Below are positions 36,828 through 50,937 of a DNA stretch of 64,000 bases, one piece after another; positions within the stretch are counted from its first letter, which is position 1; each line of letters begins with the position of its first letter. The DNA lies in assembly GCA_947177035.1 (NCBI GenBank), contig CAMWSS010000005.1:25411-89410 (forward strand), in the 5' to 3' direction. The notes below the pieces were generated by a model. The model did not search any database. It was not told where the DNA came from and saw nothing but the letters and a program-made list of their open reading frames with translations. This stretch comes from an uncultured Porphyromonadaceae bacterium. GTDB taxonomy: Bacteria; Bacteroidota; Bacteroidia; Bacteroidales; Muribaculaceae. Position numbers and translations under genes: made by a program.

Positions 36828-37937
36828 ATGAGGATATTACAGATAGGAAAATTCTGGCCCGTGCTGGGTGGCGTGGAGAAGGTCATGCTTGACCTCACGC
36901 GCGGTCTGTCTGCAAGGAATATCGAGTGCGACATGCTGTGTGCGGCCGCCGATGGCGCTCCGCGTGTATTCGCGCTGAATTCCTGCGGCAATGTGATCGC
37001 CGTCCGCACTCTGCTGAAGGCCAGCGGAACGATGATCGCGCCGCAGATGGTGTCGGTGTTGCGACGCATAGCCCCGCGCTATGATATAATCCACGTCCAC
37101 CATCCCGACCCGATGGCCGCTCTGGCTCTGTTTCTGAGCGGATACAAAGGGAAGGTCGTGCTTCACTGGCATTCCGATATTCTGCGCCAGCGCCTGCTGC
37201 TCAAGGCCTACCGGCCGCTTCAGCGATGGCTGCTGCGCCGGGCCGACAGGGTGATATGCACTTCGCCACGCTATGCCGAAGGCTCCGGGGCGCTCCGCAG
37301 TGTGGCCGACAAACTCGAGTGCGTGCCGATCGGCGTGGCTCCGGTCATTCCTGACCCCGATGCGGTCGATCAAGTGCGCCGGCAGACCCGCGGCAAGCGG
37401 ATCATCTTCTCGCTCGGACGCATGGTCCCTTACAAAGGCTTCGACAGTCTGATCGCTGCCGCCAGCCGCCTCCCCGACGACTATCTTGTCGTGATCGCCG
37501 GCTCCGGACCGCTGCACCAGAGCCTGAGCCGGCTCGTCGACCAACACGGACTGGCCGGAAAAGTGATCATGCCGGGGCGCATCTCCGACCGCGAGCGCGA
37601 CGCATGGATCGGGGCGGCTTCAGTGTTCTGCCTTCCGTCGGTCGAGAAGACCGAAGCCTATGGCGTGGTGCTCGTCGAGTCCATGTCGGCGGGGCTTCCT
37701 GTCGTGGCCACCGAGATTCCCGGTTCGGGCACTTCGTGGGTCAACGCCCACGGCGTCTCGGGGCTGAACGTGCCATGCTCCGCGCCCGACAAACTGGCCG
37801 AGGCCCTGATCAAGGTGGCCGACGGCGTGCACTCCGCCGAATTCCGCGTCAACGCGCGCCGGCGCTGGGAACGCATGTTCACCATCGATGCGTTCATCGA
37901 CAATATCACAGCTCTGTATCTTAATCTCGCTATTTAA
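36828..37937 (+). CDS. glycosyltransferase family 4
   Basis: IGKFWPVLGGVEKVMLDLTRGL; FSLGRMVPYKGFDSLI; EAYGVVLVESMSAGLPVVATEIPGSG. Confidence 0.93.
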   Translation: MRILQIGKFWPVLGGVEKVMLDLTRGLSARNIECDMLCAAADGAPRVFALNSCGNVIAVRTLLKASGTMIAPQMVSVLRRIAPRYDIIHVHHPDPMAALALFLSGYKGKVVLHWHSDILRQRLLLKAYRPLQRWLLRRADRVICTSPRYAEGSGALRSVADKLECVPIGVAPVIPDPDAVDQVRRQTRGKRIIFSLGRMVPYKGFDSLIAAASRLPDDYLVVIAGSGPLHQSLSRLVDQHGLAGKVIMPGRISDRERDAWIGAASVFCLPSVEKTEAYGVVLVESMSAGLPVVATEIPGSGTSWVNAHGVSGLNVPCSAPDKLAEALIKVADGVHSAEFRVNARRRWERMFTIDAFIDNITALYLNLAI

Positions 37938-37954
37938 ACCAAACACATCCCACA

Positions 37955-38683
37955 ATGAATTTTGACGTCAACAATTCCACCACGGCAAGTCAGGTCAACG
38001 TGTGTGACCCCTCCGGTTGCAACGACATGTGCCGAATCAATCCGGTCGACGTGTCATCGCGTCGCCGGGAGCGTCTTAATCCCTTCAGGCTCTCAGCTTC
38101 GCAGAAAATCGTCAAACGCACGTTCGACGTCATCATCGCCATCATGGCCCTCATTCTCTTCTCGCCGATAATCCTGATCATCGCTCTGATAATCTGGCTC
38201 AACGACTTCCACAGCCCAATTTTCTCGCAAACAAGGGTAGGACTCGCCGGCAAAGAGTTCACGATCTATAAATTCCGCTCCATGCGCATCGACTCCGAGT
38301 GCGACGGTGTGCCGCGGCTTTGCTGCGACAACGACTCGCGCCTCACCCGCATCGGCGCCTTCCTGCGCGACCATCACCTCGACGAATTCCCTCAGCTCTG
38401 GAATGTGCTCCGGGGCGACATGAGCGTGGTGGGCCCCCGGCCGGAGCGACCGTTTTTCACCGACAAGATAATAGCCAGCTTCCCTGACTATTGCCTCCTG
38501 TTCCACATCCGTCCGGGGCTGTTTTCCGACGCCACGCTCCGCAATGGCTACACCGAAACCATCGGCCAGATGGTGCGGCGCGCCGAGATGGATCTGGAAT
38601 ATCTCCGCAATTACAGTTTTTTCCGCGACATCAAGATAATCTGGCAGACTTCTGTCTCGATCATCAGCGGCAAAAAATTCTGA
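37955..38683 (+). CDS. priming sugar transferase (undecaprenyl-phosphate sugar phosphotransferase)
   Basis: KRTFDVIIAIMALI, SPIFSQTRVGLAGKEFTIYKFRSM, HLDEFPQLWNVLRGDMSVVGPRPE. Confidence 0.95.
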   Translation: MNFDVNNSTTASQVNVCDPSGCNDMCRINPVDVSSRRRERLNPFRLSASQKIVKRTFDVIIAIMALILFSPIILIIALIIWLNDFHSPIFSQTRVGLAGKEFTIYKFRSMRIDSECDGVPRLCCDNDSRLTRIGAFLRDHHLDEFPQLWNVLRGDMSVVGPRPERPFFTDKIIASFPDYCLLFHIRPGLFSDATLRNGYTETIGQMVRRAEMDLEYLRNYSFFRDIKIIWQTSVSIISGKKF

Positions 38684-38690
38684 CACGCAA

Positions 38691-38969
38691 ATGAAACTCA
38701 AAACCAATCTGAAACTCCGTGAGGTCGCCGACCGCTACATGCTGGTCGACGTTTCCGACTCCGACGCCAACATAACCGACGTCTACACCCTCAACTCCAC
38801 CGCGGCCTTCGTCTGGCGCGCCGCGGCATCCGCCCCCTGCGTGCCGTCGCCGCAGCAACTGGCCGATATGCTCTGCGCCGACTATGACGTTGACCCGGAG
38901 GTGGCTCTGGCCGACGTGTCGCGCCTGCTGTCGGTGTGGCGGGAATCAGGACTCATTGTTCCCGACTGA
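38691..38969 (+). CDS. PqqD-like small protein
   Basis: VYTLNSTAAFVW......LADMLCADYDVDPEVALADVSRLLSVWRESGLI matches PqqD fold pattern. Confidence 0.75.
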   Translation: MKLKTNLKLREVADRYMLVDVSDSDANITDVYTLNSTAAFVWRAAASAPCVPSPQQLADMLCADYDVDPEVALADVSRLLSVWRESGLIVPD

Positions 38970-39029
38970 CCTCAGTCACCTCCACCACCACTATTGCGAC
39001 CTTCTCCTGTCTCTTCGATTTCCACTCGG

Positions 39030-40142
39030 ATGCAAAGGCAAATGAAGCCATATGATTCGCCGGCCGAACAGGCATTCTTCGAACTGGTGCGCTGCGGCAT
39101 GCTCGACTCGGAGCCTGACGCGGCACTCTTTGCCGCGCTCGGAGCCGAAGGGTGGAGTGCCGTCTCCGACATGGCCCGGCGCCAGACCGTCAGCGGCATC
39201 TGCTACTCGGCCTTCTGCCGCCTGCCGGGCGGCCTTCTGCCCCCCCACGAGCTGCTCACGCGGTGGGTGGCACGCGTCAACGCCATCGAAACGGCCAACC
39301 GCAGAATGTCGGCGGCCCTTGTCAGGCTGGTCGAGGTCATGCGCGCCTCAGGCCTTAGCCCCATTGTCCAGAAGGGACTGTCGGTGTCGCGTTTCTACCC
39401 TGCGCCCGAACTGCGTGAGTGCGGCGACATTGACCTGTGGCTCCCTGCCGCGCAATTTGCCCGCGGGGTCGCCGTCGCCGCCGGCTTCGATCCCAACCTC
39501 AGACGCAACCCCGACAGCAGCGTCTCGTTCGTCTGCGGAGGCTTCATCGTCGAGCTACACAAGAGCCTGGTCAACATTTCCAGACCGCGTGCGGCGCGAC
39601 GCCTTGACGCCATCATCGGGCGCATGTGTGCCGCCGGAACCGGCCATTCTCCCGTTCCGTCGCCTCCTCCGATGCTCGAGCTGCTGCTCATCGCCGTCCA
39701 CATCATGCGCCACGCCTTCGGCACCGGTGTCGGACTGCGGCAGATCTGCGACTATATCTGCGCATGCCGTGCACTGGCGGGAGCCTACTCGCCCGACGAA
39801 TTCGCCGCAACCTGCCGCGAGCTCGGCATCTCGCGCTGGATCGCCATGCTCAACAGGCTGTCGGCCCTCTACTTCGGCGTTCCTGCCGAAATCCTTCCTC
39901 CCTCGGGACTCGACGGTGCCGACGCCGGCGCCATCTCCCCTGTGCCTCTGATGGAGATTATCCGCCAAGGCGGTAACTTCGGACACCATCTGCCCGGCCG
40001 CTCAGACAAAAAAGGCTTGCGCCACAGCAAGCTCCACACCGCCGCAATGTTTGTCAGGCGTGCGCGTTTCGCCGCATCCGTTGCTCCCGCCGAAGCCATG
40101 TGGGCATTCATCCGCCTCGCCTTCGGCCAGATATATTGCTGA
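39030..40142 (+). CDS. nucleotidyltransferase-like protein (NTP_transf_5-type)
   Basis: IVQKGLSVSRFYPAPELRECGDIDLWLP (G..DIDL NTase signature). Confidence 0.75.
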   Translation: MQRQMKPYDSPAEQAFFELVRCGMLDSEPDAALFAALGAEGWSAVSDMARRQTVSGICYSAFCRLPGGLLPPHELLTRWVARVNAIETANRRMSAALVRLVEVMRASGLSPIVQKGLSVSRFYPAPELRECGDIDLWLPAAQFARGVAVAAGFDPNLRRNPDSSVSFVCGGFIVELHKSLVNISRPRAARRLDAIIGRMCAAGTGHSPVPSPPPMLELLLIAVHIMRHAFGTGVGLRQICDYICACRALAGAYSPDEFAATCRELGISRWIAMLNRLSALYFGVPAEILPPSGLDGADAGAISPVPLMEIIRQGGNFGHHLPGRSDKKGLRHSKLHTAAMFVRRARFAASVAPAEAMWAFIRLAFGQIYC

Positions 40143-40145
40143 AAA

Positions 40146-41066
40146 ATGACTCCCGACCTCCGACTCCGCATCGGGCCTCTGGGCCTCCGCCTCGCCGGCA
40201 TGCCCTGGACTCCCGCCACGATTCCCGCCAACTTCCGTCCGTTTCTCGACGCGGCCGACGACCCCGCCGCGACACAGCTTGCCGTCGACTGCTCCGGATG
40301 CCTCCCGGCCATTCCGGCCGACGCTCCGCTCTCGTCGTCGTGCAACGACCTGGGCCGTGCCGAACTGTTTCGTGCCGCCGACGGCCGCTCTTGGCTTGTG
40401 GCGCTCACTCCCGCTCCGGGCCATCCCGCCCGGGTCATGATCATCGACCCCTCGCTTGCCTCGGCGCGCCTGTGGCTCCTCTCCCCCTCCGACCCCTGGG
40501 CCGACTTTGTCATCGACTCCATGTCGCGCATCTTCTTCTCTCAGTTTGCCGCCTCGCGCGGCGCCCTGATGCTCCACGCCTCGGCCGTTGCCTGCTCGGA
40601 CCGCGCCTTCCTCTTCATGGGCCGGAGCGGAACCGGCAAGAGCACCCACTCGCGCCTGTGGCTCAGCGAATTCCCCGGCTCGCAACTGATCAACGACGAC
40701 TGCCCGCTCGTGGCGCCTGCCGCCTCGGGCTGCGGCTTCAACGTCTGCGGCACCCCCTGGAGCGGCAAAACGCCATGCTGGCGCCGCGTCTCGGTCGCCC
40801 TGGCCGGGGTGGCCCGGCTCCGTCAGGCGCCCGCCAACCGCTTCATCCCAACATCGGGCGTCGACTCCTTCGTCGCCTTCATTCCAGGCATGTCGGTCAT
40901 CACCTCCGACCGCGCTCTCTATGCCGCGGCTTCGTCAACAGCCCTGAACCTGCTTGACTCCGTCGCGGCCGGCATCCTCGAATGCCTCCCCGACCGGCAG
41001 GCCGCCCTGCTGTGCCGCCAGTCACTCGACAGAACTCACTCATCAATCACCATTTCAAACAAATGA
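40146..41066 (+). CDS. HprK-like (HPr kinase-related) P-loop protein
   Basis: Walker A FLFMGRSGTGKSTHSRLW; LINDDCPLV; LMLHASAV typical of HprK-related kinases. Confidence 0.75.
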   Translation: MTPDLRLRIGPLGLRLAGMPWTPATIPANFRPFLDAADDPAATQLAVDCSGCLPAIPADAPLSSSCNDLGRAELFRAADGRSWLVALTPAPGHPARVMIIDPSLASARLWLLSPSDPWADFVIDSMSRIFFSQFAASRGALMLHASAVACSDRAFLFMGRSGTGKSTHSRLWLSEFPGSQLINDDCPLVAPAASGCGFNVCGTPWSGKTPCWRRVSVALAGVARLRQAPANRFIPTSGVDSFVAFIPGMSVITSDRALYAAASSTALNLLDSVAAGILECLPDRQAALLCRQSLDRTHSSITISNK

Positions 41067-41857
41067 AATCATTTAAAAACACTTGTTACGCACTGCTCAT
41101 TCTGCTTTGCGCCGCCATGCTCGGAGGCTGCCGTTCGCAGAAAGACTACCTCTATCTGGCCGATATGACCGATGAGCAGGGCTATGCCGTCACCCACCGT
41201 TACCAGCCGCGCATCCAGCGCAACGACCGGCTCAAGATCACCGTCAGCTGCAAAAACCCCGAACTGGCCGTGCCATTCAACGTCACCCCAGGCGCCCTCA
41301 AGGTCACCGAAACCGGTAAAGTGGGCAGCAGCGCCGAGATCCAGTCATATCGCGTCGACAACGACGGCGACATCAACTTCCCCGTCCTCGGCAAACTCTA
41401 CATTGCCGGACTCACACTGACCGACGCCGAAGAGATGATCCGCTCGCGCATCATCGACGGAAACTACATCAAAGACCCGATCGTCTCCATCGAGTTCAAA
41501 AACTTCCACTACACGGTGCTCGGCGCCGCGGCCGGAAACGGCACATACACCTCCGACGGCGACCAGGTCACCATTCTCGAGGCCATTGCCCAGGCCGGCG
41601 ACCTCGCCTCAAACGCCGACCTCGGCAAAATCGCCGTGATCCGCGAGGAGGGAAACACCCGCACGGTCCACACCGTCGACATCCGCAGCTCCGACATCTT
41701 CAACTCGCCTGCATTCTACCTTGCCCAAAACGACATTGTCTACGTCCGTCCCAAACGCCCAAAAAGCGAAAACAAAGCCAACTTCCTGCAGTGGCTCACC
41801 GTGGCCCTCTCTGTAGTCACCGCCACAACATCCGTGATCTGGGTCACGAAACGATAA
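41063..41857 (+). CDS. polysaccharide export lipoprotein (Wza-like)
   Basis: Lipobox LCAAMLGGC; SLBB/export domain INFPVLGKLYIAGLTLTDAEEMI; YVRPK; C-terminal TM. Confidence 0.92.
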   Translation: MKSFKNTCYALLILLCAAMLGGCRSQKDYLYLADMTDEQGYAVTHRYQPRIQRNDRLKITVSCKNPELAVPFNVTPGALKVTETGKVGSSAEIQSYRVDNDGDINFPVLGKLYIAGLTLTDAEEMIRSRIIDGNYIKDPIVSIEFKNFHYTVLGAAAGNGTYTSDGDQVTILEAIAQAGDLASNADLGKIAVIREEGNTRTVHTVDIRSSDIFNSPAFYLAQNDIVYVRPKRPKSENKANFLQWLTVALSVVTATTSVIWVTKR

Positions 41858-41890: not shown

Positions 41891-44296
41891 GTGTCAATGT
41901 CACCCGACAATCAACCCCGATTCTCAAAAGGGCCCAACCTTGCCGACATTCTCCTCTACCTGCTCTCGAAGTGGCCGTGGTATCTGCTTTCACTGCTGAT
42001 CTGCCTCTCCTTCGCGTGGTATCGCTCGGCAACCGCCCCGCAGGTCTTCTATGCTCAGACCAAAGTGATCATCAAAGACCCGTCGAACAAGACGTCGACC
42101 GGCGGTTTTGACCGCTACGACAATTCCATCAACCGCGTCAACGTCACCAATGAGATCCTCCAGTTCCGGTCAAAACGCCTGCTGCAGGAAGTGGTGGGAC
42201 GAACGCGGGCCGACGTGCGCTACACAACGCGCCGCGGACTCCGCACCGTCAACATCTATGGCGAGACCCCCGTCGAGATCATATTCCCGACGATCAGTCC
42301 CCGAGCCGGAATCGCCTTCTCCCTCACTCCGGTCGACTCCGTCTCGGCCCGCATCACGGTGGTCCGCGACGACCAGGAGAGCCACACGTCAGTGCCATAT
42401 GGCTCCGTCTGCAAAATCGAAGACACAGACATCATCGTCAACAAAACCCGCGACATGTCGCCTCAATGGTATGGCCGCGAGATCCGGATTGTCAAAGTGC
42501 CCGAATTCCAGGCCGTCAACGAACTTTCATCCCACCTGGGCATACGCCAGGAGGAAAAAGACGGAACCATCATCAACATCGCCGTCACCTCAGGCTCGCG
42601 CGAACTCGACATCAGGATTCTCGACACAATAATCGAGGTCTACAACGAAGAGTCCATCAACGACAAGAACCAGGTGGCAGTCAACACCGCCAAATTCATC
42701 GACGAGCGACTCCGCATCATCGGAAGCGAGCTCGGCGGAGTGGAAAACGAACTCGAATCCTACAGGCGCGACAATCAGGTGGTCAACATCGGTTCGATGA
42801 CCGCGCGCTACATGAACGAGTCTGCCCGCTACAACGCCGACGCCCTTCTCTATGACACACAGCTCCGCATCGCCACCTTCATCAAGGAATACCTGACCGA
42901 TCCAGCCCGCGCCAACGACCTGATCCCGACCAACCTCGGTGTCAACGACCAGGCCATCGAGAGCCAGATCTCACACTATAACTCCGTCAAACTCCAGCGC
43001 GACAGGCTCATCGGCGAAAGCTCCGAAGCCAACCCCGTCATCGAGGAGCTGACAAACACCATGCAGGAACTGCGCAAAAACATTCTCAGCGGAGTCGACA
43101 ACATCATCACCTCCGTAAAGGTCAAGCGCAGCGACGCCCGCGAATATGAAGGAGCCGCCGAATCGCGCATTGCCTCCATTCCCCGCAAGGAGCGCGAAAT
43201 CCTCTCCATCGAGCGCCAGCAGAAAATCAAGGAGTCGCTCTATCTCTTCCTGCTCAACCGCCGCGAAGAAAACGCCCTCTCGCAGGCTATGGCCGACAAC
43301 AACGCCCGCATCATCGACGGACCCGAAGGCAGCGTGGTCATGATCTCCCCGCGCCGCGACCGCATCATGATGCTCGGCGGACTGGCCGGTGCCTTCATCC
43401 CGACAGTAATCCTGCTGCTCGCTGCATTCATGAACACCAAAGTCCGCGGACGCCGCGACATCAAAGAGGCCGTCTCGGTGCCGTTTCTCGGCGAAGTGCC
43501 CTTCAACGCAATGATGAACCGCAAACGCCGTTCGCTGCTGACCGGACCGAAAGCCCATGCCGACCGCCAGCAACTGATGCAATCGCTGACCGGCGACGCT
43601 TTCCGCATCGTCATGGCCAACATCGCCATGATGACAAAAAGCAACGGACGCGACGCCAAAGTGCTGATGACAACCTCATTCCGCGAAGGCGCCGGCAAAA
43701 CATACTCCACCATCAACATTGCCGAAGCCATCGCCGCCGGAAGCAAGCGGGTGGTCCTCGTTGACCTCGACATACGCAAAGGCACGCTCTCAAGGCGCGA
43801 AAACATGGCCGCAAACAAAATCGGAATCACAAACTATCTCTATGACGACACCGTGACCGTCGACGACATAATCGAGCGTCGCGACGGACGCCCCGACATA
43901 ATCCCGTCGGGAATCGTGCCGCCAAACCCCGTCGAACTGCTCAACAGCCCAAGGCTCGACGCACTCTTTGCCGAACTGCGCCGGCGATATGACTTCATTG
44001 TCGTCGACTCGGTGCCGGTCGGCATGGTGGCCGACGCCACTGTCAGCTGCCGCATTTCCGATCTCACCCTCTTCATTGTCAGGGTCGGCAGTCTCGACCG
44101 TCGCCAGCTCCCCGAAATCCAGGCCCTCTATGACGAAGGCTCGCTCGGACGCTTCGGCATAATCCTCAACGGCGTTTCGCTCAACAGCGGCCAAGGCTAT
44201 GGCTATGGTTACGGCTATGGCTATGGCTACGGATATGGTTATGGCTATGGTTACGGCCACAAACACAAGCGCCGCCGCTTTCGTCTGAAATTCTAA
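41891..44296 (+). CDS. polysaccharide co-polymerase/BY-kinase (Wzc-like)
   Basis: Wzz N-term, Walker A-like TSFREGAGKTYSTINIA, VVLVDLDIRKGTLS, DFIVVDSVPVG; Tyr-rich (GY)10 tail. Confidence 0.93.
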   Translation: MSMSPDNQPRFSKGPNLADILLYLLSKWPWYLLSLLICLSFAWYRSATAPQVFYAQTKVIIKDPSNKTSTGGFDRYDNSINRVNVTNEILQFRSKRLLQEVVGRTRADVRYTTRRGLRTVNIYGETPVEIIFPTISPRAGIAFSLTPVDSVSARITVVRDDQESHTSVPYGSVCKIEDTDIIVNKTRDMSPQWYGREIRIVKVPEFQAVNELSSHLGIRQEEKDGTIINIAVTSGSRELDIRILDTIIEVYNEESINDKNQVAVNTAKFIDERLRIIGSELGGVENELESYRRDNQVVNIGSMTARYMNESARYNADALLYDTQLRIATFIKEYLTDPARANDLIPTNLGVNDQAIESQISHYNSVKLQRDRLIGESSEANPVIEELTNTMQELRKNILSGVDNIITSVKVKRSDAREYEGAAESRIASIPRKEREILSIERQQKIKESLYLFLLNRREENALSQAMADNNARIIDGPEGSVVMISPRRDRIMMLGGLAGAFIPTVILLLAAFMNTKVRGRRDIKEAVSVPFLGEVPFNAMMNRKRRSLLTGPKAHADRQQLMQSLTGDAFRIVMANIAMMTKSNGRDAKVLMTTSFREGAGKTYSTINIAEAIAAGSKRVVLVDLDIRKGTLSRRENMAANKIGITNYLYDDTVTVDDIIERRDGRPDIIPSGIVPPNPVELLNSPRLDALFAELRRRYDFIVVDSVPVGMVADATVSCRISDLTLFIVRVGSLDRRQLPEIQALYDEGSLGRFGIILNGVSLNSGQGYGYGYGYGYGYGYGYGYGYGHKHKRRRFRLKF
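44195..44254 (+). repeat. in-frame hexanucleotide repeat (GGN-TAY)x10 encoding (GY)10
   Basis: Read directly: ggctat/ggttac/ggatat variants, 10 units of 6 bp at the 3' end of the wzc-like gene. Confidence 0.95.
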
Positions 44297-44337: not shown

Positions 44338-44541
44338 ATGAAAGGTAAAAAAATCTATCAGCAGCCAGAAACCGTTGTGACCCGCGTGGAGCTTGAAAGC
44401 CCCATCTGCAGCGGCTCGACCGAAATCGAGGCAACGTCGCCCGGAGCAACAACCACGTCTCAGAAAATCAATGATTCTTTCAGTTCCGACAACAGTTTCG
44501 GTGATGGAACAGGCTGGGATAATGTAACTATCGGTAACTAA
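44338..44541 (+). CDS. 67-aa leader-like peptide
   Basis: ATG after A-rich upstream; MKGKKIYQQPETVVTRVELESPICSGS resembles common Bacteroidales KK-x-Y-x-x-P small peptides. Confidence 0.6.
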   Translation: MKGKKIYQQPETVVTRVELESPICSGSTEIEATSPGATTTSQKINDSFSSDNSFGDGTGWDNVTIGN

Positions 44542-44555
44542 TAACCCCAACAAAT

Positions 44556-46895
44556 ATGAAAAATAATAAACTTTATGCCCTTTTCGGAGTCGCTTGCGTT
44601 CTGACTCTCGGCGCCTGCTCCGACGATGATATCATCAAAGGGTCTCATGCCGGCACCGGACAGGAGGTCAACTTCGGCGCCCAGCTTGACAGATCCAAGT
44701 CAAGAACAACATATGGCGAAGAAACAAACGGCGCTTTCCCCATCTACTGGAACACCGAGGACCAGGGTTTCGACAAAATCTTTATCTCCGCACCCAATGC
44801 TCTGAAAGGCCGCAACCAGGCTTTCTTCTCAGTGCGTCCCGTCGAGGACAAGACCGCTCCGGCTGCTGTCGTGAAGATCGGCGAAAGCGGTATCCAGTGG
44901 GGCGACCAGGCTACCAAATTCTACGGTTTCTATCCCGGCAACGAAAACTTCAACCTCTCGGCTGCCGACAATACCGTGACCGCCACCCTTCCCGGTAACC
45001 AGACCATCACCTTTGACTATAAGCTCGACCCCAATGAAACGTCGGGACATGTGTATAAGACCAATCCCGATATGTCGTGCGTAATGATGGTGGCCCAGAC
45101 TGGCGATATCGAGCCGACCGATCGAGCGATCGGTCTGCAGTTTGAGCCGCTCTCCACCGTGATCGACGTGACGGTATCTGGTCCTACAAGAGACAATGTG
45201 ACCAATCCATATCACGTCACATCGGTGTCGGTAATTTCTGACAATGCTGCCATCTGCGGTAAATTCACCTATGATTACGACACAAAGACAGTCACTCCCG
45301 ATCCTGCTCCCGGTGACTCGATGATTACAGTCCGCACCATGGGTCTGGATTCTCAGGGCAACTATGTGGGTGTTCCACTGCGCACCGGTCAGACGTTGAA
45401 CGTGAAAATCAGCATGCTCCCATATACCGATGTCGAAAAGATCAACCTTAAGGTCCAGGTGACCACCGCCGACTCCAAAATCTGGACAAAGACCCTTGAA
45501 ACCGCTAATCTTGCCGCCGGTCAGATAAACCCTGTAACTCTTCCGCAACTTGTTGCAAGTGCAGCCAAGCTGGATTACTCGCGCTGGATCTCCCAGCTTG
45601 ACCCTCGTATCTACATCAGCGAGGTATCGCTCCCCGGCTCCGCACTTGCCTTCAACATCAACGGCTATATGGCCCCGGGTAATGAGAATCAGTGCACACA
45701 GTTCGGATCGATTGACCAGCAGTTTGCAGCTGGCATACGTGCCTTCCAGGGACATATCTGGATGGGCGGAGACGGTCAGTTGGTGTTCACAACCTCAAAC
45801 GGTAACAACACAAACATTACATTGAGGCGCGTTTGCTCGCGTCTGCAGGAAGAAATGGAAAAATCCCATTCTCATGGCTTCTGTGTGCTTCTGCTCTCGG
45901 ACTATGAAATAGCTGGTTCAGGTTATACGTTAAATGATGTTTATGATCGCTTACAGGACGTGACCGCTGAGCTTCAGCAACAAAACATCCTTGCTCCGGA
46001 CATCACGCCTCAAACGACCATTGCAGATGTCCGAGGCAAGATTATCCTCAAACTGCAGCTGAATGCTAGTGTGATAGACACTGGCAACGGTTTGCAAACT
46101 CATCCTAAGCGAACCAATACTGCCTTGGAAGACCTGCAAACTATATGGCAAAACCTTGCGATCAGTGGATCCGAGCAGACCAAAGCATTATTCAATATCT
46201 GGACACCAGCTGCTGGCTCTAATGTGTTCTATTCACCTATGACATTTGGCACTATCGGTACATATACATTCACTCCCGCAAGTCGAGATTTGTTATATAA
46301 TTATACACGGGCTGTTATCACTCCGATAACGCCAGGTATCGCTGTGGAGTCTGCAAAATACTGGGCTTCAGTCGCAGGTGCAAGGGAGATAGGTAATCTA
46401 AACATCACAAGCACTAATAATATTGATATGAGCAACGCTAACAAGATGTGGTATATATATAATGAGCAGGCTAATGCAGGAAACAACATCAGCCAATGTA
46501 AGACGAATATAACAAACATGGTAAACGCGATCCCCGCCACCTATACCGGTAAGTTATATAACAAATTCTATATGACTTGGGTCGGAGGAGCAGGTTCCAA
46601 CCATGGCAGATCTGTGAAGAATCAGCTGAACGCAGATTGGTTGAGCAAGACAGAAACGGCAAGCAAAGTGGGTGAGAATTATCCTCTCGGATGGGTTCTG
46701 TTCAATGATGTCACCGACCATTTCAACGATACAATTGCAGGTGATAAATTGACACAAAAATGCATCGAGCGTGTGATCAACCAGAACACCAAGGAAGGAT
46801 TTATTCTTGAGCGCGACCGCACCCAGACAATCACTCCCGCGGTAGCGCCTACCGGCGACGTGAAGGGCACTAAGCCTGCCGGCCCGATTTTCTGA
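44556..46895 (+). CDS. fimbrillin-like lipoprotein fused to PI-PLC-like domain
   Basis: Lipobox VLTLGACSDDD; fimbrillin-type N-term; RWISQLDPRIYISEVSLPGSALAF...QQFAAGIRAFQGHI aligns to PI-PLC X-domain pattern. Confidence 0.7.
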   Translation: MKNNKLYALFGVACVLTLGACSDDDIIKGSHAGTGQEVNFGAQLDRSKSRTTYGEETNGAFPIYWNTEDQGFDKIFISAPNALKGRNQAFFSVRPVEDKTAPAAVVKIGESGIQWGDQATKFYGFYPGNENFNLSAADNTVTATLPGNQTITFDYKLDPNETSGHVYKTNPDMSCVMMVAQTGDIEPTDRAIGLQFEPLSTVIDVTVSGPTRDNVTNPYHVTSVSVISDNAAICGKFTYDYDTKTVTPDPAPGDSMITVRTMGLDSQGNYVGVPLRTGQTLNVKISMLPYTDVEKINLKVQVTTADSKIWTKTLETANLAAGQINPVTLPQLVASAAKLDYSRWISQLDPRIYISEVSLPGSALAFNINGYMAPGNENQCTQFGSIDQQFAAGIRAFQGHIWMGGDGQLVFTTSNGNNTNITLRRVCSRLQEEMEKSHSHGFCVLLLSDYEIAGSGYTLNDVYDRLQDVTAELQQQNILAPDITPQTTIADVRGKIILKLQLNASVIDTGNGLQTHPKRTNTALEDLQTIWQNLAISGSEQTKALFNIWTPAAGSNVFYSPMTFGTIGTYTFTPASRDLLYNYTRAVITPITPGIAVESAKYWASVAGAREIGNLNITSTNNIDMSNANKMWYIYNEQANAGNNISQCKTNITNMVNAIPATYTGKLYNKFYMTWVGGAGSNHGRSVKNQLNADWLSKTETASKVGENYPLGWVLFNDVTDHFNDTIAGDKLTQKCIERVINQNTKEGFILERDRTQTITPAVAPTGDVKGTKPAGPIF

Positions 46896-47173: not shown

Positions 47174-49705
47174 ATGGACAAACTTTTTTCAACGGTTGTT
47201 TCCGGCTTCATAGGAGTTGGCGCAATGCTTGCTCTCGGAGCTTGCTCGGCAGACGAATCTGTTGGCCGCCGGATTGGAAACACCGTAATCGAAGCCACCG
47301 CCGAGGCTGCCGGGAACGGCGACACTGATTCCCGTGCCGCCGTGGATCCCATCGAATACACTTCGGGTCAGATCGGCATCAACTGGCTTCCGCAGGACAT
47401 GGTCGGAGTCTATGGCGACAAGGGCACGGCCAATGCTCCGTTCTTGAATCTGAATACCATAGAAACTTCGTCAACTTCATTCTCTGGTTCGCTTGCCGAC
47501 GGCGAAAAGCCTCGCTATGCCTATTTCCCTTACAGCACCATGGCCGGCAGCGATTATCGTGCCGTCATGGGAAATCTGCCGTCAACCCAGTATTATTCGG
47601 CAGCCACTCGCGAGGTGAAATGCGACTGGAAAGTCGGCACGCCGGTTGACGGTTCGGTCGGCCGGTTCAGGTTTCAAAACATCTTTGTATTCCTTAAGCT
47701 CGAAGTCAGCGCCGCAGGCACCGCCATTGATGGCGAGCGTCTGAAGTCGGTGAAGCTCAGCATTGACGGCAAGCAGCTCAGCGGCGACTTTACGTGCGAT
47801 CTCTCCAACGGACTTTGTCTCTTCTCTCCCACAACCTCAACCCGCAGCGCCGATGATTCGTCAGCGGCAGTGGAGTGGACCGACACTCCAGCTCTCGGCC
47901 GTGAGACTGTGACCGGCTATGTGAACTGCGCTCCGGTCGACGGACTCGCCGGCAAGAGCATCAGCGTGGAAATCACCACCGACCGCCACATAGCCACTTT
48001 TGAAGTGCCGCTCAAGGTTGACAGACTCGACGCAAACTATTATTACACCGTGCCGCTCACTCTGAGCCGCTTTGCCGACGGATGGACTCTTGTCGACAAC
48101 CCCGATTCGCCGGTTGAGGAGAATGCCGCGTGGGTGCCCGGCCTGCAGAGCCGTCTGGCCTGCGCCAACACGGTGTTTGCCATTCCCGGCCGGCCGTTCA
48201 TGCACAAGATCCGCGTGCCCCAGAGCCAGTCGCAGACGGCCCACGCCGTGGTGCCGGTGAAGGACGGTGTGATCCGCGCATATAATCTTCCGGAGGGCCT
48301 GAGGTGGAACGCCGACCGCTGTCTGGTGGAGGGCACCGCGCCCGCCGCTCCCGGCGAATATGTCTATTCGGTGGAATTTGAGATCGGAGGCCAGACCTAC
48401 AGCGAGGGCATCCGCCTCTCCGTCAGCAACAACCTGCACCAGCCGACTCCCCACATGGGCTGGCAGAGCTGGAACGTGCTGGAAACCAAGGTGGACGAAG
48501 CCTCGATTATGGGAGTGGCCGACGCGCTGGCCGGCAACGGATGGGCCGATGCCGGCTACAATTGGCTGGGCATTGACGACTGCTGGCAGAGCACCGACGG
48601 TTTTCGTGACGAAAACGGAGTGCCCGTGGTGAACAGGACCAAATTCCCCAACGGTCTGGCATACGTAGCCAGCTACATACACTCCAGAAATCTGAAAGCC
48701 GGCATATATTCCGACGCCGGCACACATACCTGCGCCAACGGCAGCCAGGGCGGAGGCACTCTGCTGGGCGCATATGGCTATGAAAGCCAGATGGCCTTGG
48801 CCTTTACTGAATGGGGCTTCGACAAACTGAAGGAAGACTGGTTCTGGGAAAAACAGGGCAACCCGTTGGGTGTGGACCCTAACAGTTCGGCTGCGGCCCA
48901 CGAACTCTATGGCAGGATGGGCGCCGGCATTCAGGCTGCCGGAAACCGGATTCTGCTGTCGATGTGTGAATGGGGCACCCACGAGCCATGGAGATGGGCT
49001 GCCGAGGTGGGCGGCTCGTCATGGCGCATGAGCTATGACCATCGCGACGGATGGATGGGCCAGAACGGAACCACCGGATTTAATAAGCCTGCGCCCAACA
49101 ACCCGACAGTCAATCTCAATGGCATCGGACTCAAAAACACTATCGACCTGATGCGTAATCTCTGGTCATATACCGGCATCAATCGCTTCAACGACGCCGA
49201 TATGCTGGTGGTGGGCATACGTGGCGGCGGCACTTCGTCAAACGACATGCTTTACAGCCCTAAAGGCTCCATGGGCGATGCGGAATATGAGACGGAATTC
49301 GCCATGTGGTGTATGTATGGCTCGCCGCTGCTGCTCACTCTCGACGTGCGCAGATCAGACATCAATTCCCACGACGTGGCTCTGCTGAAAAACGAGGAGC
49401 TTATAGCCATCAACCAGGATCCGATGGGACAGGGCGCCGAGTGGGTCAAGACCGAGGGCGAGATGGATTATTATATGAAGGATCTGGCCGACGGCGACGT
49501 GGCTCTGGCTGTGGTCAACCTCGGCGACAAGGATGGCACATATGTCATGGACATCGCCGCTTTCGAGGCTCTTGATGCTGATGCGGCCTATCGGGTCCGC
49601 GACCTGATCGCCCGCACCGACGCCGGCACATTGTCGGCTTCGGCTCCGCTGACCGGCAATCTCAACGGACACGCAACCTTCATTGTCAGACTGACCAAAA
49701 ACTAA
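47174..49705 (+). CDS. fimbrillin-like lipoprotein fused to GH27-type alpha-galactosidase-like domain
   Basis: Start at MDKLFSTVVSGFIGVGAMLALGACSAD (lipobox); GH27 motifs TPHMGWQSWNVLE, GIDDCWQ, FDKLKEDWFW, RFNDADMLVVG. Confidence 0.82.
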   Translation: MDKLFSTVVSGFIGVGAMLALGACSADESVGRRIGNTVIEATAEAAGNGDTDSRAAVDPIEYTSGQIGINWLPQDMVGVYGDKGTANAPFLNLNTIETSSTSFSGSLADGEKPRYAYFPYSTMAGSDYRAVMGNLPSTQYYSAATREVKCDWKVGTPVDGSVGRFRFQNIFVFLKLEVSAAGTAIDGERLKSVKLSIDGKQLSGDFTCDLSNGLCLFSPTTSTRSADDSSAAVEWTDTPALGRETVTGYVNCAPVDGLAGKSISVEITTDRHIATFEVPLKVDRLDANYYYTVPLTLSRFADGWTLVDNPDSPVEENAAWVPGLQSRLACANTVFAIPGRPFMHKIRVPQSQSQTAHAVVPVKDGVIRAYNLPEGLRWNADRCLVEGTAPAAPGEYVYSVEFEIGGQTYSEGIRLSVSNNLHQPTPHMGWQSWNVLETKVDEASIMGVADALAGNGWADAGYNWLGIDDCWQSTDGFRDENGVPVVNRTKFPNGLAYVASYIHSRNLKAGIYSDAGTHTCANGSQGGGTLLGAYGYESQMALAFTEWGFDKLKEDWFWEKQGNPLGVDPNSSAAAHELYGRMGAGIQAAGNRILLSMCEWGTHEPWRWAAEVGGSSWRMSYDHRDGWMGQNGTTGFNKPAPNNPTVNLNGIGLKNTIDLMRNLWSYTGINRFNDADMLVVGIRGGGTSSNDMLYSPKGSMGDAEYETEFAMWCMYGSPLLLTLDVRRSDINSHDVALLKNEELIAINQDPMGQGAEWVKTEGEMDYYMKDLADGDVALAVVNLGDKDGTYVMDIAAFEALDADAAYRVRDLIARTDAGTLSASAPLTGNLNGHATFIVRLTKN

Positions 49706-49737: not shown

Positions 49738-50937
49738 ATGAAAAAGTTTTTATTGACAGCGTTGGCCGCGGTTTCGTCCGTTGGCGTTTTCGCGCAGTAT
49801 TCTTCTGACGCGGTTGTGACAGAGTCGGAGGTGCTGACCACCTTTAAGACCGACTTCAAGAGCAACTGGTTTGTCAGTGTCGGGGCTGGCCCGCAGATCT
49901 TTTTCGGAGACCACGACCGCCAGATGAAGTTTGGCGACCGCCTGTCGCCCGCGCTCGACGTGGCCGTGGGCAAGTGGTTCTCGCCGACAATCGGCGCCCG
50001 GCTCATGTATAGCGGCCTGTACGTCAACGGCGCCACCCAGACCTGGGGCGACCTGAAGCACGGCGGCATCTACAACACCGGCAAGGAAGTGCCCGGAAAG
50101 TTCACCCACGCCTATGGCTATCTGGCCAAGCAGAAAATCAACTGCCTGACGCTCCACGCCGACATGATGTTTGATCTCACGAACATGATCGGCGGATATA
50201 ACCCGTCGCGCGTGTATGGCTGCGCTCCTTATATCGGTGTGGGCTGGGGACACGTCTACAGCGATCCGACGCAGAATGCCGTCATTGGCAATGTCGGCGT
50301 GTTCAACATGTTTCATGTGAGCAAGGCGGTCGACGTCAACATCGACCTGCGCGCCATGATCGCCAGCGATGACTTTGACGGCGAGATGGGCGGCCGCAAT
50401 TTCGACGGTATGTTCTCCGTGTCGGCCGGCATCACCTACCGCTTCGCGCCGCGCGGCTGGAAGACCCGCATGGTCAAGGTGGTTGAGTTTGACAATGACG
50501 CCGTCAACGACCTGCGCCGCCAGGTGGCCGATCTGATCGCCGCCAACGAGAAACTGGAGAAGGAGAAGGCCGGCACCATCGTGCAGCACAACACCGTGAT
50601 GAACGCCAACGGCAATTATATCATCTACTTCCCGATCAACGTCAGCTCGCTCTCCAACGCCGACCGCGCTCAGCTTGAGATGGTGGCCGAGATGATCAGG
50701 AAGTCGGGCGCCGAAACCCGCTTCTCGGTGATCGGCTATGCCGACAAAGCCACCGGCAGTCCTGAAATCAACGAGGTGCTGAGCCGCGAGCGCGCCATCT
50801 CCGTTAAAGAATATCTGGTCAATGAATTCGGCATATCGGCCGACCGCCTCGACGCTTCGTGGAGCGGCGGTGTGGACAATATGTTCTTCAACGATCCTTC
50901 TCTTAGCCGCGTAGTGATCATTACTGAAAAGAAATAA
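49738..50937 (+). CDS. OmpA-family outer membrane protein
   Basis: Signal peptide; beta-barrel; C-term VIGYADKATGSPEINEVLSRERAISVKEYL. Confidence 0.88.
   Translation: MKKFLLTALAAVSSVGVFAQYSSDAVVTESEVLTTFKTDFKSNWFVSVGAGPQIFFGDHDRQMKFGDRLSPALDVAVGKWFSPTIGARLMYSGLYVNGATQTWGDLKHGGIYNTGKEVPGKFTHAYGYLAKQKINCLTLHADMMFDLTNMIGGYNPSRVYGCAPYIGVGWGHVYSDPTQNAVIGNVGVFNMFHVSKAVDVNIDLRAMIASDDFDGEMGGRNFDGMFSVSAGITYRFAPRGWKTRMVKVVEFDNDAVNDLRRQVADLIAANEKLEKEKAGTIVQHNTVMNANGNYIIYFPINVSSLSNADRAQLEMVAEMIRKSGAETRFSVIGYADKATGSPEINEVLSRERAISVKEYLVNEFGISADRLDASWSGGVDNMFFNDPSLSRVVIITEKK

Follow-up and report, generated by a model that had tools for sequence, protein, structure and literature searches.

Linear polyphosphorylated peptides (LPP) have been described from the lpp cluster of Paenibacillus alginolyticus and were stated to be restricted to Bacillota (Popov et al., 2026; PMC13381572). 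Their precursors carry YxxP leaders, phosphates are introduced on Ser3 in an LppK-dependent manner, and the peptides are cleaved by a SipW-like peptidase; no nucleotidyltransferase (NTase) activity was seen (PMC13381572). The biological role of LPP is unknown, and a capsule neighbourhood is frequent (PMC13381572). YxxP is the motif bound by the PqqD-type proteins of lasso and LPP pathways. Pseudomycoidin is phosphoglycosylated by a kinase together with an NTase (PMC8498205). No description of a comparable gene set in Bacteroidota was found in the open-access literature searched. The window considered here, a stretch of 64,000 nucleotides from an uncultured bacterium of the Muribaculaceae, harbors such genes within a capsule locus (Table 1), where they are likely the cytoplasmic part of an LPP-like RiPP pathway.

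Architecture and active sites of the trio

Positions 38691-41066 comprise a gene for a PqqD/RRE domain protein, a gene for a PF14907 NTase and a gene for a kinase of the HprK/PEPCK fold, packed between the priming sugar transferase (Bac_transf) upstream and Wza, then Wzc, downstream. The intergenic gaps amount to 7 bp (Bac_transf-PqqD), 72 bp (PqqD-NTase) and 3 bp (NTase-kinase), and the kinase gene overlaps wza by 4 bp, a spacing that is operon-like. In the loci of relatives, the order GT2-Wzy-GT4-Bac_transf-PqqD-NTase-HprK-Wza-Wzc recurs, with a short ORF after wzc. As this gene order is kept in dozens of Bacteroidota loci, the arrangement of the trio is not due to chance.

Table 1. Features of the capsule locus in the window, and peptide genes of genome G050; roles given as proposed are inferred
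Feature	Position	Strand	Basis
GT4 glycosyltransferase	36828..37937	+	Pfam; homologue fused to PqqD in two relatives
Bac_transf priming sugar transferase	37955..38683	+	PF02397, 194.5 bits
PqqD-like protein, discrete RiPP recognition element, 92 aa, proposed YxxP-leader binder	38691..38969	+	PF05402
PF14907 nucleotidyltransferase, 366 aa, proposed second-step phosphopeptide modifier	39042..40142	+	PF14907
HprK-like kinase, 306 aa, proposed peptide Ser kinase	40146..41066	+	AlphaFold2, Foldseek, motifs
Wza-like export lipoprotein	41063..41857	+	PF02563, 68.8 bits
Wzc-like co-polymerase/autokinase, trio-linked group	41897..44296	+	domain matches and Wzc identity comparison
YxxP-leader peptide, 67 aa, proposed precursor	44338..44541	+	conservation, dN/dS, co-occurrence
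Lipoprotein paired with the peptide	44556..46895	+	lipobox, 14-bp spacing, AlphaFold2 model
Second lipoprotein of the locus, GH27-type (Melibiase_2) domain	47174..49705	+	PF16499, 117.5 bits
OmpA-family outer membrane protein, end of locus	49738..50937	+	PF00691, 51.7 bits; present in relatives
Peptides of the dispersed pairs of G050	L194:7894-8094, L195:5201-5458, L196:6082-6291		

Regarding the PqqD protein, PF05402 is matched at 57 bits (cut-off 23.4), and the three significant solved PDB relatives of the family profile are TfuB1, TbiB1 and LppB (9x8z), all leader-binding proteins of lasso and LPP pathways. Within the family N35 and D75 are invariant and Y65 is near-invariant; these residues align with N33, D70 and Y60 of LppB, by which the YxxP leader is held at its Tyr and its Pro kink in structure 9x8z (PMC13381572). 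Because they map to leader-contact residues, the PqqD protein is expected to bind a YxxP leader, although binding itself is inferred. The NTase matches PF14907 at 133.6 bits (cut-off 31.2) and displays a GDIDL motif; alternative in-frame starts exist at 39030 and 38994. Residues K111 and G112, G128, D129 and D131 (GDxD), and E171 and H173 (E-x-H) are invariant in 26 aligned relatives, from which the catalytic residues are inferred to be intact; the reaction is likewise an inference. The kinase bears the P-loop GRSGTGKST, and its sequence matches remain sub-threshold (PEPCK_ATP 17.3 bits, HprK_rel_B 20.1 bits). An AlphaFold2 model built on an alignment of 52 sequences (pLDDT 95.6) matches ATP-PEPCK and HPr kinase/phosphorylase structures in Foldseek, and H144, the P-loop and N183, D184 and D185 are invariant in the 52 sequences. 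Searching the PDB by phmmer with the single kinase and NTase sequences returned chance matches only. An earlier sequence-only reading had proposed a PqqD-fold protein, an NTase with the G.DIDL signature and a GRSGTGKST HprK-like protein flanked by the priming transferase and Wza, all of which held in full; its two fold assignments were upheld by profile search (PqqD) and by AlphaFold2 with Foldseek (kinase), without contradiction.

The YxxP peptide and its association with the trio

Directly after wzc, 3.3 kb downstream of the trio, lies a 67-aa ORF that reads MKGKKIYQQPETVVTRVELESPICSGS, followed by a Ser/Thr/Gly/Asp-rich tail. Its N-terminus has a YxxP motif, with Y7 at 44356-44358 and P10 at 44365-44367, and the predicted phosphosite is Ser27 (44416-44418), phosphorylation being inferred. 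Four positions show no variation across 25 capsule-type peptides, namely the YxxP Tyr and Pro, Y+10 (Val) and Y+13 (Glu); a Ser occupies Y+20 in 22 of them. Mean identity is 46% in the leader and 22% in the core. In every pair compared dN is lower than dS (0.07/0.51, 0.10/0.24 and 0.42/1.53), which supports a genuine protein-coding gene. A bare YxxP regular expression gives mostly noise, and a profile was therefore used for the peptide search.

Counting each locus once, 27 trio-bearing capsule loci can be read for 4 kb or more after wzc, and 23 of them have the peptide downstream of wzc. Four loci (L135, L136, L182 and L071) have no peptide within 4 kb of wzc; the genome of L071 has three copies elsewhere. 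Strong peptide matches were obtained in 11 of 149 genomes of the family, every one of them belonging to the 13 that have a capsule-locus trio, and in the remaining two of these 13 the contig stops about 0.4-0.5 kb past wzc; none of the 136 genomes without a capsule-type trio gives a strong match. Wzc is present in 148 of the 149 genomes and strong matches appear only alongside the trio, so that the peptide cannot be regarded as a general neighbour of wzc. At the level of the order (295 genomes), the kinase is found in 18 genomes, a YxxP peptide (broader model) in 14 and both in 11 (Fisher p 3.5e-13; leaving out the four genomes from which training peptides were taken, 1.2e-8). These p values are not corrected for genome relatedness; the pattern is nevertheless patchy over many families.

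More than one precursor can be found in some genomes, with five peptide matches in G359 and four in G156. G050 has three peptide-lipoprotein pairs dispersed away from the trio, with a common leader and differing cores (Table 1). By analogy, a single enzyme set would serve several precursors in trans, as is the logic of RiPP pathways. These observations bear on a regulatory reading, in which the peptide, or Wzc or another capsule protein, is phosphorylated through PqqD and the kinase as a switch tuning capsule synthesis, without any mature exported product. The operon position beside Wza and Wzc speaks for it, and HprK/P kinases are regulatory in their classical role. However, variable cores on one leader, several precursors per genome, the S26 peptidase and ABC exporter discussed below and the pairing with lipoproteins better fit a secreted product, and the same enzyme sets exist outside capsule loci; this reading is therefore considered very unlikely. 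The sequence-only reading had offered two roles, modification of a peptide or regulation of polysaccharide assembly. It had missed the substrate, for which a candidate is now located, and the first role is well supported by the conserved peptide, the co-occurrence and the precedent of Paenibacillus, in which this enzyme set phosphorylates a YxxP peptide (PMC13381572), with the chemistry inferred; for the second no support was found, and it is not excluded. The lack of any peptide partner would have counted as refutation; as far as this can be computed, it does not apply, a YxxP partner having been found.

Peptidase, exporter and relation to known families

Of the 13 capsule-type genomes, 12 have a SipW-like S26 peptidase, whose gene usually adjoins an ABC exporter gene at a distance of 6-8 kb downstream from the peptide. 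In the genome of the window, the S26 and ABC genes are adjacent on contig C39 (4642-6836), outside the window, and the Ser and His motifs of S26 are kept; the window therefore contains part of a complete set. A supposed loss of peptidase and exporter in the capsule type thus proved wrong. G117, which is near-complete and has both trio and peptide, yielded no S26. In Bacteroidota outside capsule loci, HprK-S26-PqqD-(NTase)-ABC sets exist, some with YxxP peptides, and in L160 and L179 (Sphingobacterium) a full S26-PqqD-NTase-ABC-HprK block lies between a glycosyltransferase and wza. In the HprK tree, a single group (98/96) contains all capsule-type members and adjoins the Sphingobacterium/L160 group. 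A contig labelled Rickettsiales (L116) carries a Bacteroidota-type capsule trio that groups with Bacteroides mediterraneensis in this tree, and is likely mis-binned. A distinct cluster was observed at L081:4343-10403 and L082:8971-17397 (of genomes G089 and G022), with three radical-SAM-like proteins, PqqD, and HprK-like and NTase-like proteins surrounding a 46-52 aa YxxP peptide whose core consists of YTSLY repeats; it appears to be a separate RiPP type.

The likeness to LPP extends to the PqqD-type RRE, HprK-like kinase and NTP transferase of the window, to the S26 peptidase and MsbA-type ABC exporter on C39 or downstream in relatives, to a YxxP-leader precursor with a variable core, to the absence of any macrolactam cyclase seen and to the capsule neighbourhood. 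Unlike LPP, the host lineage is Bacteroidota, not Bacillota, the trio is built into the capsule operon, and S26 and ABC are unlinked in the genome of the window. Compared with the LPP consensus YxxPxVLxHQxIxFETxxS, the system of the window has YxxP, hydrophobic-x-hydrophobic-E and Ser, but lacks VLxHQ and FET, and the candidate Ser stands two residues farther from the Tyr. Further differences are the pairing of the peptide with a fimbrillin-like lipoprotein and the occurrence of PqqD-glycosyltransferase fusions. The system is not filed as a strict member of LPP, given the incomplete agreement of its precursor with the consensus, the separate location of S26 and ABC in this genome and the lack of a placement in an RRE tree.

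With pseudomycoidin and paeninodin the locus shares a PqqD-type B1 and a kinase acting, by inference in the window and together with an NTase in pseudomycoidin, on a Ser of a leader-bearing peptide (PMC8498205); it differs in its linear precursor and in a candidate Ser that is near the leader rather than C-terminal. The lasso B2 leader protease (PF13471) has no match in the genome, and no asparagine-synthetase-like macrolactam cyclase was seen among the ORFs of the locus, to which this last statement is limited. A lasso-peptide cluster was rejected on the missing B2 family. It can also be asked whether the trio is a degenerate lasso cluster, the remnant of a paeninodin-like system minus cyclase and B2 protease. 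In its favor, the structural relatives of PqqD are lasso B1 proteins and LppB, and kinase and NTase occur in paeninodin-type clusters. Against it, PF13471 is unmatched, the active-site residues are intact, and the capsule type without cyclase makes up a single HprK group spanning many families, a pattern that is not decay; this possibility is all but excluded. HPr-rel-A (TIGR04352/TIGR04353) and HprK-related kinase B (TIGR04355) also combine an HprK-like kinase with a PqqD-like partner. Filing under HPr-rel-A was rejected (17.6 vs 200 bits for TIGR04352, 20.8 vs 35 bits for TIGR04353), and with 20.1 vs 200 bits the kinase is far below the curated cut-off of TIGR04355.

Capsule wiring, paired lipoproteins and proposed pathway

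A lipobox protein starts at most 150 bp from 27 of 33 peptides, compared with 252 of 1544 background ORFs. In the window, the paired lipoprotein has a moderate-quality AlphaFold2 model (pLDDT 65.5) that matches PI-PLC and Bacteroides fimbrial proteins, predicting a fimbrillin-like N-domain and a C-domain of PI-PLC fold. The His of the LPGTHDS-type site is the usual catalytic His of PI-PLC. Here the site reads LPGSALAF, the usual His being gone, and the protein is therefore probably not catalytic. The next lipoprotein of the locus has a GH27-type alpha-galactosidase domain; relatives have a fimbrillin-like lipoprotein in that position.

The preferred explanation can be summarized as follows. 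PqqD would grip the YxxP leader of the peptide and present it to the HprK-like kinase, which would phosphorylate, once or several times, a conserved Ser close to the border of leader and core (most likely Ser27). The NTase would then extend this phosphate by a sugar or nucleotidyl group, for which pseudomycoidin is the reported example; capsule sugar nucleotides might serve as donors. The SipW-like S26 peptidase would cut off the leader and the ABC exporter carry the product out, where it may act together with the paired fimbrillin-like lipoprotein, within the capsule or close to it. What is directly established are the genes, the fold of the kinase, the conserved active-site and YxxP-contact residues, the leader motif, the genomic association and the presence of S26 and ABC elsewhere in the genome. 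Peptide binding, its phosphorylation and further modification, removal of the leader, export and the surface role are inferred from homologues, without biochemistry. The NTase step is the weakest, since LppN showed no activity in the published system (PMC13381572). Counting against an LPP-like pathway are the partial match of the leader to the Bacillota consensus, the unlinked S26 and ABC of this genome, the absence of S26 in G117 and the four peptide-less loci.

The wiring into the capsule locus allows another reading. Two genomes encode a single protein in which the capsule GT4 carries PqqD at its C-terminus (476 aa in L060, 480 aa in L076), and Pfam recognizes both domains in the one from L060. 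Trio-linked Wzc proteins form a distinct group, being 45-100% identical to that of the window, against at most 41% for the other listed Wzc copies. The C-terminus of Wzc (about 44215-44296 in the window) consists of strictly alternating Gly-Tyr, about ten repeats, also seen in relatives and unlike the typical irregular tyrosine cluster. In a capsule-conjugate, the phosphopeptide would be an acceptor extended by capsule glycosyltransferases or joined to polysaccharide, in a single peptide-capsule-lipoprotein surface assembly, and capsule export proteins would aid transport of the product. The fusions, the fixed position of the trio between the priming enzyme and wza, which it overlaps, and the distinct Wzc group favor it. 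However, most relatives possess an S26 peptidase and an ABC exporter of their own, making capsule export unnecessary, the fusions are two of dozens, and there is no direct evidence for a peptide-glycan bond, so that a conjugate appears unlikely. An equally doubtful, bolder version, suggested by the existence of the PqqD-GT4 fusions, is that a phosphorylated and glycosylated peptide forms a structural partner of the capsule in gut Bacteroidota: a capsule glycosyltransferase receives the peptide from PqqD, the phosphate provided by kinase and NTase serves for sugar attachment, and the exported peptide links polysaccharide with the fimbrillin-like/pseudo-PLC lipoprotein. If true, bacteria would have a new form of peptide-polysaccharide-lipoprotein assembly, and LPP-type peptides would gain a function.

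Returning to the LPP-like pathway, the enzyme set itself is known from LPP; what is new is the Bacteroidota lineage, the wiring into the capsule operon, including PqqD-GT4 fusions, and the frequent pairing of peptide and lipoprotein. The set is widespread in Bacteroidota, including the cultured gut commensals Bacteroides mediterraneensis, B. caecigallinarum, Marseilla massiliensis and Muribaculaceae Isolate-110. With named precursors, a predicted phosphosite and partner protein, and genomes carrying several precursors, both the role of these peptides and the unknown reaction of the NTase become directly testable.
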